From Fuerstiella sp. (GTDB lineage Bacteria > Planctomycetota > Planctomycetia > Planctomycetales > Planctomycetaceae), in NCBI GenBank assembly GCA_029941865.1, contig JAPYTO010000047.1:1-34057 (forward strand): a stretch of 34,057 nucleotides of DNA. The letters run 5' to 3'. Position 1 is the stretch's first letter. Each line of letters opens with the position of its first letter. Below are positions 147-31,017 of this stretch, one piece after another. Below the pieces are notes generated by a model that was not told the origin of the DNA, did not search any database, and was given only the letters and a program-made list of their open reading frames with translations. Both the position numbers and the translations under genes were made by a program.

Positions 147-1373
147 TCAACGTGAGGTGCGACGGCTGCGTTGCTGCTGCATGTTTCGCTGCCTTCTTAG
201 CTGCATTTCCCGCGACATTTCCTGCATCCGAGCTCCCGGACCACCGCCGAATGAACCTCCGCCCGGCGGGCGAGGACCGCGGCGGCCGGACGTTCGACGG
301 GATCCACCATCACGATCGCGTTCCAGAGTAATCCGATAGGTCTGAGACACGGGCTTGCAGAACGTTTCTGCGTCATCGCACGCGAAGTACCTGACCTTGA
401 TCACAATTTCGTGCGGTGCACGGCTGTCGCCAGCGACATCGTCGCACAGATCCAGCAGGAACTCGCGGGGATCTGCGTCTGCATCGACTTCAACGTCAGG
501 GCCTTCGACCGAATCGTCGGCCACAATAATTCCCGTAGTGCTTTCCACCTCAAAGACGACCGGCATTGCTCTGTTGTTCCAGTGGACCTTATACAACGGG
601 TCCAGAAAAAATCCGATGTAAAGCTGGCCGTGTCCGGTGCGGAAGAAATCAGCATCAACTTCGGCACGTAGCTTCACGTAGAAGGGTTCACTTGATGCTT
701 CCATCATCGGTTCGGTCAGCACTGGCGTCATCTGTCCCGGCAATTTCACACGGTCAACAATTCCCGTCGCGGCTGTCTTTGGTGGCGCGAGCGGTCTCAT
801 GTTCAAATCAGCGATCGTTGTCTCACGTCGCACGGCACCCACAAGACCCTCAAGGTCCGCTCGCAGGTCACTCGGACTGCTCCATTGACGCGACACGACA
901 AGATTGCCGTCGGGGTCAAAAACGAACTCTGAATTCGGACGGTCGCCAAGGGCGTGCTTCAGCACGTTGTCCATGGAATCGCAGATCCAGTTGATGCGAG
1001 TTCCCAGCTTTTCCTTCGCCTCAGCCACATGCATGAGTCGCTCATCCAAGGTCACCGGGGCGACGTAGCGATTGGTTTCCGGATGAGCAAGTGTCTTGTA
1101 GACGTAGTAAAACCTGACGCCCTTATCCGAGTAATCGCGTTCAACCGTCTCCAGACCGGAGACGTTTCTGAGAAACGGTGGTCAGGTCAGACAACCAAAG
1201 ACAAGCACAGAATATTCACCACGCAGTTCGTTCAGCGAAAATTCGTGGCCGTCTTCGTCGTAGACCACTACGTCCGGCAGTTCGGATCCCAGCTGAGGAA
1301 GTCCGCCTGGGGGCTGTGCGAAGGCAACACGACCGCACAGCACGGTGATGGCGAAAAGAGTTGCTGTCCGCAT
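147..1373 (-). CDS. Iodothyronine deiodinase-like selenoprotein, secreted, with DsbD-alpha-like C-terminal domain
   Basis: Read through one in-frame TGA at 1182-1184, this encodes 408 residues. Residues 1-19 form a signal peptide (cleavage near AFA-Q). A thioredoxin-fold domain follows: LPDVVVYDEDGHEFSLNEL (32-50), then VFGCLT-U-PPF with U at residue 64. Deiodinases carry SCTUPPF at this place, and the frame stays open across it with matching sequence after it (FYYVYKTLAHPE; WICDSMDN; FVFDPDGNLVVS near 150-160). Cys61 and U64 form a CxxU pair. Residues about 226-348 resemble the N-terminal DsbD alpha domain, with Cys332 and Cys339 spaced like its redox pair, followed by a Gly/Arg/Gln-rich tail. 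A gene caller would report two pieces (147-1055 and 1182-1373). The redox substrate is unknown; an iodinated compound is only a guess. A frameshift or pseudogene is unlikely because the frame never changes. Confidence 0.88.
1143..1166 (-). promoter_or_regulatory. Bacterial-type SECIS hairpin of the deiodinase-like gene
   Basis: In the mRNA, a perfect 7-bp stem (CGUCUCC with GGAGACG; 1164-1158 and 1152-1146) is capped by the loop GGUCU (1157-1153). Below it, a bulged G (1145) is followed by two A-U pairs. The loop begins 24 nt after the UGA and starts with G, which fits the known bacterial SECIS geometry. E. coli fdhF has the same GGUCU loop contacted by SelB. A second short hairpin (1177-1163, loop UCA) overlaps the base and could compete with or remodel the lower stem. 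Confidence 0.8.
1182..1184 (-). other. In-frame UGA read as selenocysteine (residue 64)
   Basis: The minus-strand codon TGA sits between Thr63 and Pro65, at the catalytic Sec position of deiodinase-family proteins. Coding similarity continues on both sides in one frame, so recoding explains it better than termination. Confidence 0.87.
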
Positions 1374-1894
1374 GTGTTCGACTCCTGAATGACGCGTTTA
1401 ACAAGGGTTCAACCCCCGTGATGGAGTCAAGTGTCGCGAGGATGTCCGGTTTCTTTCTTTGTTCTCGATTCGCCACACGCCCATGCATTGCCTGGCGTGT
1501 CCCTGAAGTCGCGTACAGTGCAACTGGGGCGGCTACGCCGGACTTGAACAGGACCATTACAGCTGAGAGTGCCAGGTCAGATTGGCATCCCTGTCGCCTG
1601 CTCATCCATGCCCAAACGGCCCACTCTGCGACTTCGCCAGTCACTGAGAACAGCCCCATACTCTCTGCGAGCATGGATCAGGACTGTTACGCTCATGGCA
1701 ATCTGCTGGTGTTCATGACGTCAACACCCGCACAACCGGACTGAACATGAAGTCAACCGCTCAAAAAATGTGTTCCTCTGAGAGTGTTCGGCAGACCGTG
1801 ACCAACCCTTGTGCATGGCAGAACAGCAATGCCCGGAAGTGTTCGGTAAACGCTGCGGGCAGACGAAACCAACCAGAAACAGGAAAGCCTCGTC
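1374..1894. other. Intergenic region, no recognisable gene
   Basis: About 520 nt separate the divergent deiodinase-like gene and the HAMP-like gene, so both promoters should lie here. I see a 7-bp hairpin (1475-1481 with 1494-1500, 12-nt loop) and the AGGAAAG ribosome binding site of the next gene at its right end. Open frames here show no family motifs. Confidence 0.5.
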
Positions 1895-2435: not shown

Positions 2436-2852
2436 ATGCCGATCCATGTGCCAAACATCAGATCCCGCCGCGCTCGACGCGGCACAGCCGCAACGGAACT
2501 TGCGGTGTGCCTGCCTATTGTTCTGGTGCTGATCGTTGGGACCATTGAAGCGTGTTCGATGGTCTACCTGAAACAATCACTCAGCGTCGCTGCATACGAA
2601 GGTGTTCGCGTATCTGTCTCGCCAAATGGTGACGCGACCGCTGTTACCACAGCGGCGAATCGAATTCTCACAGCTCGCAACGTCATATCACCAACTATCA
2701 CCGTCTCCCCAGCCAATTTTGCGAATCAACCGGCAGGAACATGGGTTTCTGTCCACGTCACGGCCCCGGCCAATGCAAATTCCATAATCTCTGGTTTCTT
2801 CTACGACGCGATTGTCGTTGATGGCCAGGCCACCATGATGAAGGAATTCTGA
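2436..2852 (+). CDS. TadE-like pseudopilin/pilus assembly protein
   Basis: This 138-residue protein has the TadE pattern: a short basic N-terminus (SRRARRG), then TAATELAVCLPIVLVLIVGT with the conserved Glu at the start of the single hydrophobic helix, then an extracytoplasmic region with YEGVRVSV. TadE-family proteins are minor pseudopilins of tight-adherence (Flp) pili, although in planctomycetes many stand apart from full tad loci. AGGAAG lies nine bases before the ATG. Its stop is only four bases from the next start, so the two are very probably co-transcribed. Confidence 0.8.
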   Translation: MPIHVPNIRSRRARRGTAATELAVCLPIVLVLIVGTIEACSMVYLKQSLSVAAYEGVRVSVSPNGDATAVTTAANRILTARNVISPTITVSPANFANQPAGTWVSVHVTAPANANSIISGFFYDAIVVDGQATMMKEF

Positions 2853-2856
2853 GACC

Positions 2857-3918
2857 ATGATTCAACGACACGCAAAAGCAGACATCCGGAATCGGCGGGG
2901 TGGAATGCTGCCGCTCATCGCCATATGCCTGCCAGTGATTCTTGCTTTCTCGGCATTCGCGATCAACATCGCCTGGATGCAATTAACTCGTACCGAGCTG
3001 CGCACGGCGACGGACGCGGCGGCCCGCGCCGGCAGTCGCATGTTAAGCCGCACTCAGGATACTGATGTCGCCCAAGCAACCGCCATGGAAGCCGCGGCGC
3101 GGAACACCGTCGCCGGAGACTCCCTGGTGCTGGCCAACAGCGACATGATTTTTGGTATGTCGGCGCCCGATGAAGCAGGATCGTGGCTGTTCACCGAACA
3201 GCCTGAAGACACCAACGGCCTGAACGGAGTCCACGTTACGGGCCGCCGAACGAATGGATCTGCGTCCGGGGCGGTTCCCATGTTGTTCACGGGGATCTTT
3301 GACATGGGTCACTTCGAACCAGTCAAGACTGCCGTGGCGTCTCACATGGACCGCGATGTCGTTCTGGTGCTGGACAGATCGGGATCAATGAGAAGATGGA
3401 CGCCTGGCGGAAATCGTTGGTTGGATCTGAAGGCAGCAGTGGCAGCATTTCTGAATGCTCTGTCAACGACGCCCCAGGATGAACTTGTCGGTGTCGTGAC
3501 ATATTCCACCACATCCACACTCGACGAAGACATGACGCTCAACTATGACCACCTGATGACCTCCATCGACAGTCTGTCGGTCAGCGGCATGACCGCCATT
3601 GGACGGGGACTCCAGGACGGCATTGATGGAGTCACGGCTCCTGCCTTCGCTCGGGCCAACGCAGCAAAGACGATCGTTGTGATGACCGACGGCCAGCACA
3701 ACAGGGGAATCATGCCGGAAGCCGTGGCACGGACGGCGCATGACATCTACGGAATCACCGTCCACACAATCACGTTCAGTAGTGGTGCCAATCAATCGCA
3801 CATGCGACTTGTCGCCAGGAACGGCGGCGGTCGCCATTGGCACGCCGACAACCAGGCGGGACTGATCGCCGTCTTTGAAGAAATCGCCAACAACCTGCCC
3901 ACACTGCTGACCCAATAA
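2857..3918 (+). CDS. TadG-like protein with von Willebrand factor A domain
   Basis: This 353-residue protein begins with a TadG-like basic segment and a hydrophobic helix (NRRGGMLPLIAICLPVILAF, residues 12-31). Next comes the ATDAAARAGSRML stretch typical of TadE/TadG exported regions. A von Willebrand A domain follows from about residue 165: VVLVLDRSGSM carries the MIDAS DxSxS motif, a threonine region lies near MTAIGRGLQDG, and IVVMTDGQHN gives the second metal-side Asp. TadG-type proteins with vWA domains are surface or pilus-associated adhesion factors. It lies between two TadE-like genes, which supports one secretion or surface-assembly unit. No cpaF, tadB or tadC gene is in the window. 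Confidence 0.8.
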   Translation: MIQRHAKADIRNRRGGMLPLIAICLPVILAFSAFAINIAWMQLTRTELRTATDAAARAGSRMLSRTQDTDVAQATAMEAAARNTVAGDSLVLANSDMIFGMSAPDEAGSWLFTEQPEDTNGLNGVHVTGRRTNGSASGAVPMLFTGIFDMGHFEPVKTAVASHMDRDVVLVLDRSGSMRRWTPGGNRWLDLKAAVAAFLNALSTTPQDELVGVVTYSTTSTLDEDMTLNYDHLMTSIDSLSVSGMTAIGRGLQDGIDGVTAPAFARANAAKTIVVMTDGQHNRGIMPEAVARTAHDIYGITVHTITFSSGANQSHMRLVARNGGGRHWHADNQAGLIAVFEEIANNLPTLLTQ

Positions 3919-3976
3919 ACCGAAGGTTTTCAGGGCGGTGACTGCGACATTGATCGGTCGGAATAAGGGAATTGTC

Positions 3977-4426
3977 ATGAAACTCGGGTGCAAAAAACGA
4001 ACGAAGCGTCGCTTGGGAACAATGCCGTCCCGCCACGGAGCAACGATCGTTGAATTTGCATTGGTCGCACCCATTTTCTTCATTCTACTGTTCGGGGGAA
4101 TTGAGTTCGCAACGCTCAGCACGATTCGAGCGACATCACACAATGCGGCCTACGAAGGTGCTCGCAAACTGGTGATTCCTGGGGCCGATGTCACCGTCGG
4201 AATAGCCGAAGCCGAACGGATCATGAGTATCATTGGAGTCGACACCCTGGCTGTGACCGTCACGCCGAACGTGATTACGAACAACACTCGCGAAGTCACC
4301 GTCAGCATCTCGATTCCCTACAAAGACAACGCCGTCTTTGTCCCGATGTTTACCGGTGGGCTCACCATTGTCTCCAGCACAACGCTCGCCACCGAACGTT
4401 ACGATGGCATCGTGGCTGGTCCCTGA
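3977..4426 (+). CDS. TadE-like pseudopilin, second copy
   Basis: I chose the ATG at 3977 because AAGGGA lies six bases upstream; a GTG at 3938 would add 13 unconvincing residues. The 149-residue protein has a strongly basic start (KKRTKRR), then RHGATIVEFALVAPIFFILL with the TadE-type Glu at the start of the helix, and the same extracytoplasmic YEGAR motif as the copy at 2436. It ends the HAMP-TadE-vWA-TadE run. The two TadE proteins are diverged, so they probably have distinct roles in one structure. Confidence 0.8.
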   Translation: MKLGCKKRTKRRLGTMPSRHGATIVEFALVAPIFFILLFGGIEFATLSTIRATSHNAAYEGARKLVIPGADVTVGIAEAERIMSIIGVDTLAVTVTPNVITNNTREVTVSISIPYKDNAVFVPMFTGGLTIVSSTTLATERYDGIVAGP

Positions 4427-5517: not shown

Positions 5518-6084
5518 ATGCCAAATATCGCTGCTGATAAACCTCGCTGGAGATCCACCACCGTTCTGGCCGTGCGTCATCAGGGCCGGATTGTCCTGGG
5601 GGCCGACGGACAGGTCACGTACGGCAACACAATCATGAAGTCGGACACGAAGAAGCTTCGACGAATGCTGGATGGCAAGGTACTGGTCGGCTTTGCCGGA
5701 TCCACGGCCGATGCCTTTGCTCTGATGGAGCGGTTTGAAGAGAAGGTGAAGGACTATCCCGGTAACATCGCTCGCGCGGCCACCGAACTGGCTCGTGACT
5801 GGCGTACGGACAGGGCACTTCGAAAACTGGAAGCCATGATGATCGTCGCCGATGCAGAGCTTTCATTGCTGCTGACGGGGCAGGGCGACGTGGTTCAGCC
5901 AACCGATGGAGTCGTCGGCATCGGATCCGGCGGTCCTTACGCGACGTCTGCCGCCAAAGCGTTGGTGAAGCATTCCGATCTTTCCGCAGAACAGATCGTT
6001 CGTGAGTCACTGGCGGTGGCTGCAGAAATCGACATCTACACCAACAACAACGTCATCGTCGAGGAATTGGAATCGTCGACGTGA
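5518..6084 (+). CDS. hslV: HslV, peptidase subunit of the HslUV ATP-dependent protease
   Basis: This is a 188-residue Ntn-hydrolase with the threonine N-terminus TTVLAVRHQGRIVLGADGQ. Thr14 is the expected nucleophile, so a 13-residue leader has to be removed, unlike E. coli HslV where only Met is lost. The conserved DTKKLRRM supplies the active-site Lys, and GSGGPYATSAAKAL is typical of the family. It forms the dodecameric proteolytic core in the cytoplasm and is activated by HslU, encoded 206 bases downstream. The ATG has no clear Shine-Dalgarno sequence. Confidence 0.95.
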   Translation: MPNIAADKPRWRSTTVLAVRHQGRIVLGADGQVTYGNTIMKSDTKKLRRMLDGKVLVGFAGSTADAFALMERFEEKVKDYPGNIARAATELARDWRTDRALRKLEAMMIVADAELSLLLTGQGDVVQPTDGVVGIGSGGPYATSAAKALVKHSDLSAEQIVRESLAVAAEIDIYTNNNVIVEELESST

Positions 6085-6290
6085 GTCTAGAGTAAGCCGC
6101 TGAATCTGTCGTCCGAAATGCGGCCACGTTGCTGTTTCAGGGACGCCCTCAAATCCACTGCGGGGATCACACAACCAGATTCAAGTGACGCTCTGAATCG
6201 ATTGCCCGGCTCTGGTTGGGCAATACAAAAAATGCGTGCCAAACCAACATTGTACTTTCAATAAACGACAACTCCACACCAACCGAAAAC

Positions 6291-7667
6291 ATGTCAGAAA
6301 ACACAACCCCGTTGACACCTCATCAGGTCGTCGAAAAACTCAGCGAACACATCGTTGGACAGGACAGCGCCAAACGAGCGGTCGCCGTAGCCCTCAGGAA
6401 TCGCTGGCGCTGGCAGAATCTTTCTGACGAGATGCGCAAGGAAGTCACCCCGCGCAACATCCTGATGATTGGTCCCACGGGAGTCGGTAAGACCGAAATT
6501 ACACGGCGACTGGCCAAGCTGACAAGTGCTCCGTTCGTCAAGGTCGAAGCGACCAAGTACACAGAAGTCGGCTATTACGGTCGCGACGTGGAAAGTGTGA
6601 TCCGAGACCTTGTCGAAGCCGCCATCGGACTCGTCCGTACGGCCAAGCGAGCTGACATTGAAGAGGAAGCCAAACGTGGCGTCGAAGATCGTCTGCTGGA
6701 ACTTCTGGTTCCCTTCGAACCGTCATCATCGCTTTCGTCGACTGACGAAAATGATAAAGACGCGGAATCGCAGCAGTCCAAACACCTACGGACCGTCGAA
6801 AAGTTTCGAGACATGCTGCGAGACGGCAAGCTGGAAGACCGCATGGTCGAACTGTCCACGGAACAACGAAACTCGCCCGTGCAGGTCCTCACAAACATGG
6901 GCGGCATGGAGCAGATGGATATGGATCTGCAGGGCATGCTGGACAAAATGATGCCCAAACAGAATACGTCACGAAGACTTACCGTGGCCAATGCTCGGCG
7001 AGTCCTGCATGAGCAGGAAGTGGAATCCTTACTCGACAAGGACAGCATTCAGGAAGAAGCCATCCATCGCGCCGAAGAAACCGGCATCGTCTTCATCGAC
7101 GAGATCGACAAAGTCTGCAGCAGCGGCGAAGGCAGCAAGTCTGCGGACGTCAGTCGCCAGGGAGTCCAGCGCGATCTGCTGCCCATTGTCGAAGGAACAA
7201 CCGTTCAGACACGGTACGGATCGGTTTCCACCGAGAAAATCATGTTCATCGCTGCCGGCGCGTTTCATCGGTCCAGACCGTCGGACCTGATGCCCGAACT
7301 GCAGGGACGTTTTCCCATTCGTGTGGAACTGAGCGATCTGACCAAAGAAGATTTCGTTCGTATTCTGACCGAACCCTCCGGTTCCATCACTCGGCAGTAC
7401 GTCGAATTACTGGCCGTTGATGGAATCACGGTTGAGTACACGGACGACGGACTGCATGCGATAGCCGAAATCGCCTTCTTTGTGAATCAAACGACTCAGA
7501 ACATTGGAGCTCGGCGTCTGCAGACGATCATGGAACGCCTGCTGGAAGACGTCAGCTACGAAGCTCCCGAATGCGGACACAAGACGGTCGTTGTTGACGA
7601 AGCCTACGTGAATGGCAAGCTGGACGACATCCGCAAAGACGAAGACCTCAGCCGCTTTGTGCTTTGA
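6291..7667 (+). CDS. hslU: HslU, ATPase subunit of the HslUV protease
   Basis: This 458-residue AAA+ unfoldase starts best at the ATG at 6291 (MSENTTPLTP); the longer frame opens at a TTG at 6216 with unrelated sequence. It has Walker A GPTGVGKT (61-68), the pore-loop region KYTEVGYYGRDV with its GYVG-like motif, a variable I-domain (about 110-235), Walker B IVFIDEIDKV (about 266-275), and the sensor region RFPIRVEL. The C-terminus ends RFVL, the tail that docks into HslV and opens its active site. It converges with the next gene, with only 30 bases between the stops. Confidence 0.96.
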   Translation: MSENTTPLTPHQVVEKLSEHIVGQDSAKRAVAVALRNRWRWQNLSDEMRKEVTPRNILMIGPTGVGKTEITRRLAKLTSAPFVKVEATKYTEVGYYGRDVESVIRDLVEAAIGLVRTAKRADIEEEAKRGVEDRLLELLVPFEPSSSLSSTDENDKDAESQQSKHLRTVEKFRDMLRDGKLEDRMVELSTEQRNSPVQVLTNMGGMEQMDMDLQGMLDKMMPKQNTSRRLTVANARRVLHEQEVESLLDKDSIQEEAIHRAEETGIVFIDEIDKVCSSGEGSKSADVSRQGVQRDLLPIVEGTTVQTRYGSVSTEKIMFIAAGAFHRSRPSDLMPELQGRFPIRVELSDLTKEDFVRILTEPSGSITRQYVELLAVDGITVEYTDDGLHAIAEIAFFVNQTTQNIGARRLQTIMERLLEDVSYEAPECGHKTVVVDEAYVNGKLDDIRKDEDLSRFVL

Positions 7668-26261: not shown

Positions 26262-26369
26262 GACTTTGGCCGCACGTGTCGCAGCAGTCTCTGAACAAAG
26301 ACGCCTGAAACTGTGGCACAACCGAAACGGACTTTTCAGCGCTTTTATGTACGCACTCTGAGTATTTGC

Positions 26370-29300
26370 ATGATGATTCGAAAAACAACTTTGGCACTGC
26401 CGTTGGTGATGTGTTTCACGCCATGCGCTTTTGCTCAGGACAGTGACGTCAATTTCAGTCGCGACATTCTGCCGTTGCTGTCCAACAGCTGCTTCACGTG
26501 TCACGGTCCTGATGAAGCCAATCGGCAATCCGACCTGCGGCTGGACAAGCACGAATCGGCACTGATGGAACTGGAGTCCGGACACGCGGCCATTGTGCCG
26601 GGCCACAGCGACCAAAGTGAACTGTTTCGCCGAATTGCGTCCAGCGATGCCGACATAAAAATGCCTCCACCGGATTCAGACAGAAAATTGACCGCTGCAC
26701 AGATTGCTTTGATCAAAAAGTGGATCGACGGCGGAGCCGAATGGTCCGGTCACTGGGCGTTTCAACCGCCGCAGCAACCGGATATTCCTGCGGCCGTGGA
26801 AGGATGGCAGACGAATGGCACGATCGACAAATTCATCCACGCGAAACTGAAGACAGTGAATCTGAGGCCGGAAGATCACGCGGCGAAGGAAACGGTAATC
26901 CGCCGCGTGACTCTGGACCTGACGGGCCTGCCCGCAACCATTCAGGATGTCGATCAGTTCCTTGCTGACGAATCCGGCCAGGCGTACGAACGGGTTGTGG
27001 ATCGCCTGCTGAGTTCTCAGAAGTATGGTGAGAACATGGCCAGAATCTGGCTGGACGCAGCTCGCTATGGAGACACACACGGTCTGCATCTGGACAACGA
27101 ACGATCGATCTGGCCGTATCGCGACTGGGTGATCAAATCGTTCAACGGTAATCAACCATTTGATCAGTTTACGGTCGAACAGATTGCGGGAGACCTGCTG
27201 CCCGATCCCACTCTCAGCCAGCGCGTCGCCACGGGATTCAATCGCTGCAACGTGACTACCAGCGAAGGCGGCTCGATCGACGACGAGTATTACATGCGAT
27301 ACGCCGTCGATCGGGTGGAAACCACGTCCACCGTCTGGCTGGGCCTGACCGCGGGCTGTGCGGCCTGCCATGATCACAAGTTCGATCCGCTGACACAAAA
27401 GGAGTTCTACCAGCTGTTTTCGTACTACTTCAGCCTGACGGAACGGGCCATGGACGGCAATGCTCTGTTGCCACCGCCTGTCGTAAAGGTTCCATCGACC
27501 ACTCAAGTGCAACAGAAGAGTCAATACACTCAGCAACTGACAGCGATCGATACGACAATCGCAAAGCTGCTGTCCGAATTCAAATACACCGATCCCAAAC
27601 CGACGGAAGTCCTGGGCGAATTGAGCGAAGAACAGCTCGTCTGGATCGATGACGTAATCCCACCCGGCGCAAAGCCCGAAGGCAATAGCCCGTGGCAATT
27701 TGTGGAAGCACCTGATCACCCTGTACACAGCGGCAAAAAATCCACAGTCCGCACGGGCTCAGGAGACGCGATCACTCAGCATTTCTTTACAGGAGCCACC
27801 GACAAACTGAAGATCGGCGAAAACACGCGGCTGTTCGCTTACGCATACCTGGATCCAAAGAATCCGCCGCAGACGCTGCAGCTGCAGTTCAACGATGGCA
27901 AGTGGGATCATCGAGCAACCTGGGGAGCGGACAAGGCCTTTCTGGCCGGCCGCAACGACGCCTTAAACCGACAGATGGGAAAACTGCCGGAAACCGGCGC
28001 GTGGGTTCGATTGGAAGTCGACGCGAGTGCCGTCGGACTGCCGCCGGGATCCGAACTGAATGGTTGGGCATTTACGCAGGTCGGAGGCACGGTTCACTGG
28101 GACACAGCGGGGATCGTTTCTCAATCACTTTCAGAAGAACAAAAACGGTCGTTGTTTGCGTGGGAACAGTTTCGAACGAAGGTAAAACAACCCGCACTCC
28201 CGCCGGAAATTCAAAAACTGCTGGACGTTGAGAAATCCAAACGCACGCCCGAACAGACGGCTCAGCTGACTCGCTACTACAAGCAGCATGTGCATCCGGA
28301 TTCGCGAACAAAGCTGGCCGAGCCCCTGGCCGAACAGACTGACCTGAAGAGGAAAATAGGCGACGTAAACAATGCCATTCCCTCAACGCTGGTAATGGAG
28401 GACCGCCCCGAACCGCGCCAGGCTCATGTTCTGGAACGCGGCCAGTACACGGAAAAACGCGAGGCAGTTTCGTCGGCCGTTCCCGAATGGCTTGCTCCGC
28501 CGGTGGAAAATGCGCCTGCCAACCGTCTGGGACTGGCCGAGTGGCTGGTGCAACGGAACCATCCGCTCACGTCACGAGTGACGGTCAATCGTTTCTGGCA
28601 GCAGTTCTTCGGCACCGGTCTGGTGAAGACATCAGAGGATTTTGGCGTACAGGGTGAACAGCCGTCGCATCCGGAACTGCTGGACTGGCTGGCCGTCGAC
28701 TTTGTCGAATCCGACTGGGACGTCAAACGTTTCGTGAAACAGATTGTCATGTCGTCTACCTATCAGCAATCATCACGAGTGACACCTGAAAGGCTGGCGG
28801 CAGATTCGGAAAACCGACTGCTGGCACGTGGGCCCCGTTTTCGACTGGATGCCGAAGTCATTCGCGATCAGGCACTCGCACTGAGCGGCCTGCTGATTGA
28901 TACAATCGGTGGCAAGAGCGTCAAACCGTACCAGCCGGCAGGTTTGTGGAAGCCGGTGGGATTCGGCGGCAGCAACACATCGGTATTCGTGCAGGACAAA
29001 GGCGACAAACTGTTTCGCCGCAGCATGTACACATTCTGGAAACGCACCGTACCGCCTCCGTCGATGGTGACATTTGATGCCCCCAACCGTGAGACGTGCC
29101 AGGTGCGTCGAGCTCGCACCAACACACCGCTGCAGGCGCTGGTGTTGATGAATGATGTGCAATACGTCGAAGCAGCCCGAAAGTTTGCCGAGCGTGTGAT
29201 CACCGAGGGCGGAACAAGCGTCGACGATCGTGTTATCTTCGCATTCCGGTCGGTTCTGAATCGGCGACCAAATACCACAGAACTGCAGTCACTGACAAAT

Positions 29301-29471
29301 CTGTATGAAGAATACCTGAGCTTGTTCAGGGGCGATCCTGAGTCGGCGGCGAAGTTTCTGTCCGCCGGCGAATCGCCCCTCAGCGATCTGCTTGATCCCA
29401 AAGAACTGGCCGCATGGTCAATGGTGACGCATCTGCTGCTGAACTTAAGCGAAACTGTAACCAGGGGATAG
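26370..29471 (+). CDS. PSCyt1/DUF1549/DUF1553 exported cytochrome-like protein
   Basis: Begun at the ATG at 26370, this is a 1033-residue protein with a signal peptide (1-22, cleavage near AFA-Q); the GTG at 26313 is less likely. A PSCyt1 c-type-haem-like domain follows with CFTCH (41-45) and [14 protein letters not shown]1549 (about 140-400) contains a second CxxCH, CAACH (330-334). A beta-sandwich insert occupies about 441-590. DUF1553 (about 717-1000) has [20 protein letters not shown]. These proteins, found mainly in planctomycetes and relatives, are usually encoded directly before a DUF1501 protein, as here. Their biochemical role is unknown; electron transfer or polysaccharide processing have been suggested. 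The next gene starts 79 bases downstream. Confidence 0.92.
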
Positions 29472-29550
29472 TTGAACTGTCGGCGAACTGACGCTCGTCG
29501 CACTTGCAACTTGAAAACAACCCGACTGAAGTACCCACGGGGAATCAACA

Positions 29551-31017
29551 ATGAACCCACTCCGAGAATCACAACTGATCGAAACCCGCCGCCACTTTTT
29601 TGGCCGGATGTCGACCGGGATCGGCTCGGCCGCCCTGGCATCACTCGTCAACCCATCGTTGTTTGCGGACAGCCCCCCTGCTGCGACGAATTCCCCTGGT
29701 GGAATCCCTGGATTGCCTCACTTTGCCGCCAGGGCCAAACGAGTCATCTACCTGTTCATGTCGGGTGCTCCGTCGCAACTGGACATGTGGGATTACAAGC
29801 CGAAAATGAACGATTGGTTCGATAAGGACCTGCCGGATTCTGTTCGCAACGGCCAGCGCATTACAACGATGACATCGGGACAGAAGCGTTTCCCGATTGC
29901 TCCTTCCATCTTTAAGTTCGGACAACACGGCTCCAACGGGACCCGAGTCAGCGAATTGCTGCCGTACACTGCAAAGATGGTCGACGACCTGGCAGTCATC
30001 AAGACGGTTCATACCGAAGCCATCAACCACGACCCGGCAATAACATACATTCAGACCGGCAGCCAGCTGCCAGGCCGCCCAAGCACCGGCGCGTGGTTTT
30101 CGTATGGTCTGGGCAGCATGAACGAAAACCTGCCTTCGTTCATCGTGCTGCATTCGACAGTCAACGGTGGCTTTGGTGGGCAGGCTTTGTATTCGCGGCT
30201 GTGGGGATCCGGTTTCCTGTCGACTCGACACCAGGGAGTCAGCCTGCGTGCAACGGGCGATCCGGTGCTGTATCTGTCCAACCCCGATGGCATGTCAGTT
30301 GCCATGCGTCGACGCATGCTGGATGAATTGAGTCGACTAAATGAGGAGCGTTTCAATGCAGTCGGCGACCCGGAAATCCAGTCTCGGATTGCTCAGTATG
30401 AAATGGCGTATCGCATGCAGACGTCGGTCCCCGAATTGACGGACGTTTCCGATGAGTCAAAAGAAACTCTGGAAATGTATGGTCCCGACGTTTCCAAGCC
30501 TGGGACCTTCGCGGCAAATTGCCTGCTGGCCCGCCGCATGGCCGAACGCGGCGTGCGATTCACTCAGGTGTTTATCCGCCAGTGGGATCAGCACGGCAAC
30601 CTTCCCAACGACATTCGTCGCCAGTGCGGCATCATCGACCAACCGTGTTACGCACTGGTGCAGGATCTGAAACAGCGCGGCATGCTGGACGACACGCTGG
30701 TGATCTGGGGCGGAGAATTTGGACGGACCATTTACTGTCAGGGCGGTTTGACCAAAACAAATTACGGTCGCGACCACCATCCAAGATGTTACACCAAATG
30801 GATGGCCGGTGCCGGAATCAAAGGCGGCACTGATTACGGAAAAACCGACGACTTCAGCTACAACATCACCGAAAACCCGGTGCACATCCATGACCTGAAC
30901 GCAACGATTCTGCAGCAACTGGGAGTCGATCACGAGCGTCTGACCTACCGACATCAGGGACGTGATTTCCGTCTGACCGACGTGCATGGAAAAGTTGTGA
31001 CGGATATCCTTTCATGA
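29551..31017 (+). CDS. DUF1501 family protein (sulfatase/alkaline-phosphatase-like fold)
   Basis: This 488-residue protein has GGGGAA six bases before its ATG and a twin-arginine-like export signal ([21 protein letters not shown] region, about 13-33). [20 protein letters not shown] is the DUF1501 hallmark, and [10 protein letters not shown] and GRDHHP near the C-terminus hold the metal-ligand-like residues shared with the alkaline-phosphatase superfamily. It is the standard partner of the upstream PSCyt1 protein. Its TGA stop overlaps the ATG of the next gene in ATGA, which argues for translational coupling with the FrnE-like selenoprotein. Confidence 0.92.

Follow-up and report, generated by a model that had tools for sequence, protein, structure and literature searches.

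A conserved hairpin downstream of an in-frame UGA as the probable SECIS element of a deiodinase-like selenoprotein gene in planctomycetes

The stretch analysed here, called the window throughout, comprises positions 1 to 34,057 of contig JAPYTO010000047.1 of the planctomycete Fuerstiella sp. (assembly GCA_029941865.1). Close to one of its ends, the minus strand carries a gene interrupted by an in-frame UGA in the context GCLT-UGA-PPFLRN, where reading the UGA as selenocysteine (Sec, U) yields an active-site motif CLTU followed by PPF. A short hairpin lies downstream of this codon, and comparison with orthologous sequences makes it almost certain that the hairpin is a bacterial selenocysteine insertion sequence (SECIS). 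The gene, its predicted domains and the RNA features around the UGA are listed in Table 1.

Table 1. Coordinates of the predicted selenoprotein gene, its protein domains and its RNA elements in the window
Feature	Position	Strand	Basis or remark
Putative selenoprotein gene	147..1373	minus	408 residues with TGA read as U; ATG 1373, stop TGA 149-147
In-frame UGA, putative Sec codon, residue 64	1182..1184	minus	Aligned codon is UGA in 65 distinct orthologues, TGC/TGT in 5
Putative SECIS upper hairpin, CGUCUCC-GGUCU-GGAGACG	1146..1164	minus	19 nt; RNAalifold and covariation; lost in cysteine (Cys) orthologues
Apical loop GGUCU, invariant core G1156-U1155, presumed SelB contact	1153..1157	minus	N-G-U-N-N in 65/65
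Competing predicted fold, CCGUUUCU paired with the 3′ arm	1144..1179	minus	Minimum free energy (MFE) fold of the 45- and 65-nt stretch; judged non-functional
Terminal TGA, real stop of the gene	147..149	minus	Without a SECIS-like hairpin of at least 7 bp after it
Candidate Shine-Dalgarno sequence AGGAG	1382..1386	minus	8 nt before ATG 1373; read from the sequence
Probable signal peptide MRTATLFAITVLCGRVAFA, residues 1-19	1317..1373	minus	Sequence; helix 4-13 in the model
Thioredoxin-fold, deiodinase-like domain, residues ~29-180	834..1289	minus	Structure matches, AhpC-TSA, T4_deiodinase
Immunoglobulin (Ig)-like second domain, probably DsbD-alpha-like, Cys pair C332/C339	309..761	minus	Pfam DsbD_N in orthologues

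The hairpin is built by a 5′ arm, CGUCUCC (1164-1158), the apical loop GGUCU (1157-1153) and a 3′ arm, GGAGACG (1152-1146), which together give seven perfect pairs closed by a 5-nt loop. The spacing from the UGA is 24 nt to the loop and 17 nt to the stem, and the computed energy is -10.6 kcal/mol for the 19 nt of the hairpin and -12.2 for a 25-nt stretch. An earlier, sequence-only reading of the window had described a perfect 7-bp stem with a GGUCU loop, and both the pairs and the loop are as it described them. Its distance of 24 nt after the UGA is correct for the loop, while the stem already starts at 17 nt; the span it gave, 1143-1166, encloses the perfect hairpin plus a few flanking bases that are unpaired. 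The published model of bacterial SECIS elements allows loops of 3-9 nt, stems of 4-16 bp, a UGA-to-loop distance of 16-37 nt and energies of at most -7.5 kcal/mol, with the loop pattern N1-G-[G/U]-N-N2, in which a G stands within the first two loop positions and is usually followed by G or U (PMC13188914). The window hairpin fits this model throughout, with a 5-nt loop, a 7-bp stem, 24 nt and -10.6 kcal/mol, and has nothing outside it; it lies just downstream of an in-frame UGA inside the coding region, in a genome with the full SelA, SelB, SelD and tRNA-Sec set.

Taken in isolation, the hairpin stands weakly beyond chance. Among the 1255 TGAs of the window, 15 (1.2%) have, 16-37 nt downstream, a SECIS-like loop on a perfect stem of 7 bp or more, so the hairpin alone is weak support for recoding. 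When an N-G-U-N-N loop is required, only the hairpin at 1146-1164 is left, and the filter counts it twice, owing to a second TGA 5 nt upstream in another frame. The sequence-only reading had taken the hairpin as independent support for recoding; the SECIS interpretation is upheld, but the support is supplied by conservation. It is the comparative evidence, not the lone hairpin, that puts the predicted element far beyond chance. A search of the window with Rfam at gathering thresholds gave no match, which leaves this verdict unaffected.

The collection of orthologues drew on 170 genomes of the order, on a species-genome collection and on retrieval by place. The resulting set holds 65 distinct UGA sequences (E <1e-50, with the TGA aligned to residue 64) and 5 forms with TGC or TGT at this codon. 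The alignment spans the full length of the protein through the UGA, at 44-82% identity, and the nearest orthologues come from metagenome-assembled genomes (MAGs) named Fuerstiella. The UGA form L064 belongs to the complete genome of a cultured strain, Planctomycetes bacterium K23_9. The hairpin is found at the same spacing in 65/65 UGA orthologues. Numbered by nucleotides after the UGA, pair 19/35 is G-C and pair 23/31 is C-G in all 65, and pair 20/34 is U-A, U-G or C-G in all 65. Pair 21/33 is C-G in 57, U-A in 4 and U-G in 3 sequences, with one broken (C-A); pair 24/30 is C-G in 63 and U-A in 1, again with one broken. The outermost pair, 18/36, is the most variable (C-G 29, U-A 12, G-C 6, U-G 3, A-U 1, the remainder unpaired), and position 22/32 is U-A in 29, C-A in 35 and G-A in 1. 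Overall, 89.7% of cells are paired and two-sided changes occur at five of the eight pairs. With a mean of 0.165, none of 500 shuffles attained the observed covariation score of 0.244, and sliding the stem register made every alternative worse on both percentage paired and score. RNAalifold run without a supplied structure recovered this stem and left the mismatch position unpaired. The sequence-only reading had named a lack of compensatory stem conservation in orthologues that keep the UGA as evidence against a SECIS; the stem is instead kept in all of them, with compensation.

The loop is conserved as N-G-U-N-N rather than as GGUCU. Its fixed letters are the second and third, G-U, while the two outer ones are able to form an A-U, G-U or G-C pair, and the forms among the 65 sequences are AGUUU (27), GGUCU (24), AGUCU (11), CGUGU (1), GGUAC (1) and AGUUG (1), AGUUU being commoner than the form in the window. 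UGA-form orthologues with a SECIS are also present on MAG contigs labelled Acidobacteria, Verrucomicrobiales, Gammaproteobacteria and Thermoanaerobaculia (L067, L070, L073 and L083), two of them with the diverged loops CGUGU (L070) and AGUUG (L083); either horizontal transfer or mis-binned contigs would explain this distribution. The likeness to E. coli fdhF drawn in the sequence-only reading holds for the loop letters, GGUCU with G-U on top, and for only the 24 of 65 orthologues that share them. In fdhF of strain MG1655, GGUCU lies 18 nt after UGA140 on an interrupted stem, whereas the window hairpin has 24 nt and a perfect 7-bp stem; the last U of the fdhF loop pairs with a preceding A, whereas in the window hairpin it faces only the first G. 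The window element is thus not a strict fdhF-type SECIS, failing on both spacing and stem. SelB-SECIS structures place the contacts of SelB on the G and U of the fdhF loop.

Among the alternatives to a SECIS at 1146-1164, the one that survives best holds that the functional structure is the longer hairpin at 1144-1179, which is the MFE fold of the window sequence. The 25-nt stretch folds as the canonical hairpin. On the orthologue alignment, the competing fold stays within the shuffle range, both for percentage paired (177/500) and for covariation (94/500), and it was rejected as a functional structure for want of covariation beyond shuffles. A ribosome with UGA in its A site would cover the 5′ arm of the competing fold, about 2-9 nt after the UGA; since that arm would be hidden, it is the small hairpin that should be present during decoding. 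We consider it very unlikely that the longer hairpin is the functional one.

Even less probable is that the UGA is recoded in another way, by general readthrough or as Trp or Cys, with the hairpin acting as a readthrough stimulator or another mRNA structure. In favour of this alternative, covariation shows the structure to be important but does not tell which factor recognises it. However, general reassignment of UGA is excluded because the gene itself ends on TGA, and the only other codons found at residue 64 are the Cys codons TGC and TGT, in a CxxC motif. The genome (8.04 Mb, 90.5% complete) also encodes a complete Sec machinery: SelB on contig C120 (314 bits, including the winged-helix domain SelB-wing_3), and SelA (510 bits), SelD (260 bits) and a tRNA-Sec with anticodon TCA (UCA; 74 bits) on contig C9. 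Within the order, UGA forms occur only in SelA-positive genomes: SelA scored over its cut-off in 28/28 genomes with the UGA form versus 70/170 overall (hypergeometric 3e-13, kinship ignored). No further convincing element emerged when the genome was searched with a SECIS covariance model (R1), the model being specific to this family, so that other selenoproteins may be present; its next matches lay in short frames, lacked a suitable UGA or lacked the loop.

Codon use bears on a further alternative, that the hairpin is conserved merely through the peptide it encodes, NV(P/S)(G/S)LE. The peptide is indeed conserved, in part even in the Cys forms (NIAGLEA), but the synonymous choice within it is fixed far above the background of the gene (GGT or AGT only, GTC or GTT only, TCC or CCC nearly only). 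With constraint measured by how far synonymous codon use deviates from the background of the gene itself, codons 71-75, which account for the greater part of the hairpin, rank 4, 2, 1, 6 and 11 of 317. Residue 73 may be Gly, Ser or Arg, yet its codon is always GGT, AGT or CGT. Val71 and Glu75 covary in their third codon positions (alignment columns 24/36), with 57 C-G, 4 U-A, 3 U-G and 1 C-A (Fisher p 2.5e-4, kinship ignored). All 5 Cys orthologues use other codons and lack the hairpin, and the mean stem energy over the same 19 nt is +2.5 kcal/mol in these forms versus -9.0 in the UGA forms. Four of the five fall within one clade alongside UGA forms, and the minimum number of Sec/Cys changes on the family tree is 3. 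Conservation through the peptide can be set aside with near certainty. Equally negligible is the proposal that the UGA is a true stop, arising by mutation or assembly error and leaving a pseudogene or two open reading frames (ORFs), with the hairpin a chance inverted repeat: the 15 similar hairpins in the window and an unremarkable single-sequence fold energy speak for it, but 65 distinct orthologues, drawn from many species, share the UGA, the protein is conserved before and after it, and the hairpin shows covariation and synonymous constraint.

The reading of the hairpin as a SECIS is supported because the stem is kept with compensation in the UGA orthologues, is lost in the Cys ones and occurs together with the Sec genes. 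Several observations weigh against it. In the 45-nt ensemble, the pairs of the canonical hairpin amount to only ~3% and the alternative fold is preferred; the MFE of the 65-nt stretch shows no excess stability over shuffles (z -0.24); and the peptide N-V-[PS]-[GS]-L-E under the hairpin is partly conserved as protein. The third pair from the loop (window 1160/1150) is a C-A mismatch in 35/65 hairpins; this mismatch tracks a Ser-to-Pro difference in the protein (TCC versus CCC) and seems to be tolerated. Finally, the independent changes of paired bases nearly all agree in direction and are too few for pairwise significance. When the hairpin codons were left out of the tree, the third-base pair Val71/Glu75 scored 3 to 0 in the same direction, and alignment columns 21/39, scored as C/G, gave 4-6 to 0 of 8.

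Against this background, we hold with high confidence that the hairpin serves as the SECIS in the mRNA of a planctomycete selenoprotein and that the UGA is decoded as Sec, a reading in which SelB binding and Sec insertion are deduced from sequence. In the proposed mechanism, a ribosome would reach the UGA at 1184-1182, SelB-GTP carrying Sec-tRNA-Sec would bind the hairpin by way of the apical G-U of its loop, and the bound complex would allow the UGA to be decoded as selenocysteine. Translation would yield an exported protein of thioredoxin fold that has a C-x-x-U active site, is a relative of deiodinases and presumably plays a redox role. Standard gene callers split the gene at the UGA, and a redox protein of many planctomycetes is therefore likely annotated as two fragments. 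The family also offers a clean natural experiment: because close relatives are divided into forms with Sec and a SECIS and forms with Cys and no SECIS, the base requirements of the element can be read from it: the loop G-U is invariant, other bases have only to form pairs, and a C-A mismatch seems to be allowed.

The closest solved structures to the thioredoxin domain (VIA-align) are deiodinases 2 and 3, with 9h48 at Z 20.2 (root-mean-square deviation 1.9 over 157) and 4tr3 at Z 18.9; the match to ResA is lower (Z 17.1). The AhpC-TSA profile scores over its cut-off on this domain. PF00837 (T4_deiodinase) reaches 16.2 bits on the window protein, under the curated cut-off of 27, and matches 26/26 family members at E<=0.5 (best 3.1e-8). 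The genome search with PF00837 gave no match anywhere, controls included, and is hence uninformative, and the NCBIfam profile NF038285 for deiodinase family proteins, at 46.3 bits, did not reach its cut-off of 250. In the second domain, C332 and C339 are invariant in 49 orthologue domains, 21 of which match DsbD_N (PF11412) at E<=0.01 (best 2.5e-7); the window's own copy has no match. The fold search with this domain returned generic Ig-like folds at Z 7-9, with DsbD-alpha among them at Z ~7 and not distinctive, and a comparison with the sequences of solved structures gave no match. Our best guess is that the protein is an exported thiol/selenol oxidoreductase, in which Sec would act with C61 in CLTU and the second domain would pass electrons on.

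While the element itself is ordinary for a bacterial SECIS, the greater novelty lies in the protein subfamily, which belongs to a little-described family of thioredoxin-like planctomycete proteins. Deiodinase-like selenoproteins were reported from marine bacteria in the Sargasso Sea survey, where a redox role was proposed (PMC1088965). The window protein has in common with these (PF00837) the deiodinase 2/3-like thioredoxin fold, the TU-PPF context, a bacterial SECIS and the existence of Cys homologues. The deiodinase-like entry of the 2026 catalogue has a UxxC motif (PMC13188914), whereas the window protein has CxxU and a probable DsbD-alpha-like domain with a Cys pair; no entry with this pair of domains was found in the catalogue, and an earlier mention may stand in the supplement of PMC4807772. 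Planctomycetes from Porphyra likewise possess the Sec machinery, and several selenoproteins were recognised in them from a UGA with a SECIS, the examples in the main text being fdhA and fmdB (PMC4807772). No literature was found on the motif GCLTU or on Fuerstiella with selenocysteine. The balance tips modestly toward an uncatalogued subfamily, widespread in Sec-using planctomycetes, that joins an exported deiodinase-like CxxU domain to a DsbD-alpha-like domain with a Cys pair, in which Sec may exchange electrons with the second domain and which has undergone at least three Sec-Cys switches, with the SECIS lost in every Cys form.

More distant members of the deiodinase family are present in other planctomycete genomes. 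The paralogues L093 (~618), L094 (~612) and L095 (~618) have a UGA in SYTU-PPF, each with a hairpin of its own whose loop, AGUCU or AGGUU, lies 16 nt after the UGA; their relatives L096-L099 have TGC. Where Cys and Sec forms share a clade, the orthologue has another deiodinase-family gene no more than a few kb away (L043 (927), L044 (367), G104:C213:10070-10516 and G089:C1:2715446-2716021).

The neighbours of nine orthologues, compared by ORF sizes only, included none in common. In the window, TadE/TadG-like pseudopilin genes, one with a VWA fusion, lie at 2436-4426, oriented divergently to the selenoprotein gene. At 5518-7667, a proteasome-fold subunit precedes a Clp/HslU-like AAA ATPase, and the two probably make up an HslVU protease pair. 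Farther along, at 26313-31017, a PSCyt1/PSCyt2/PSD1 protein is followed by a DUF1501 protein, a pair typical of planctomycetes.
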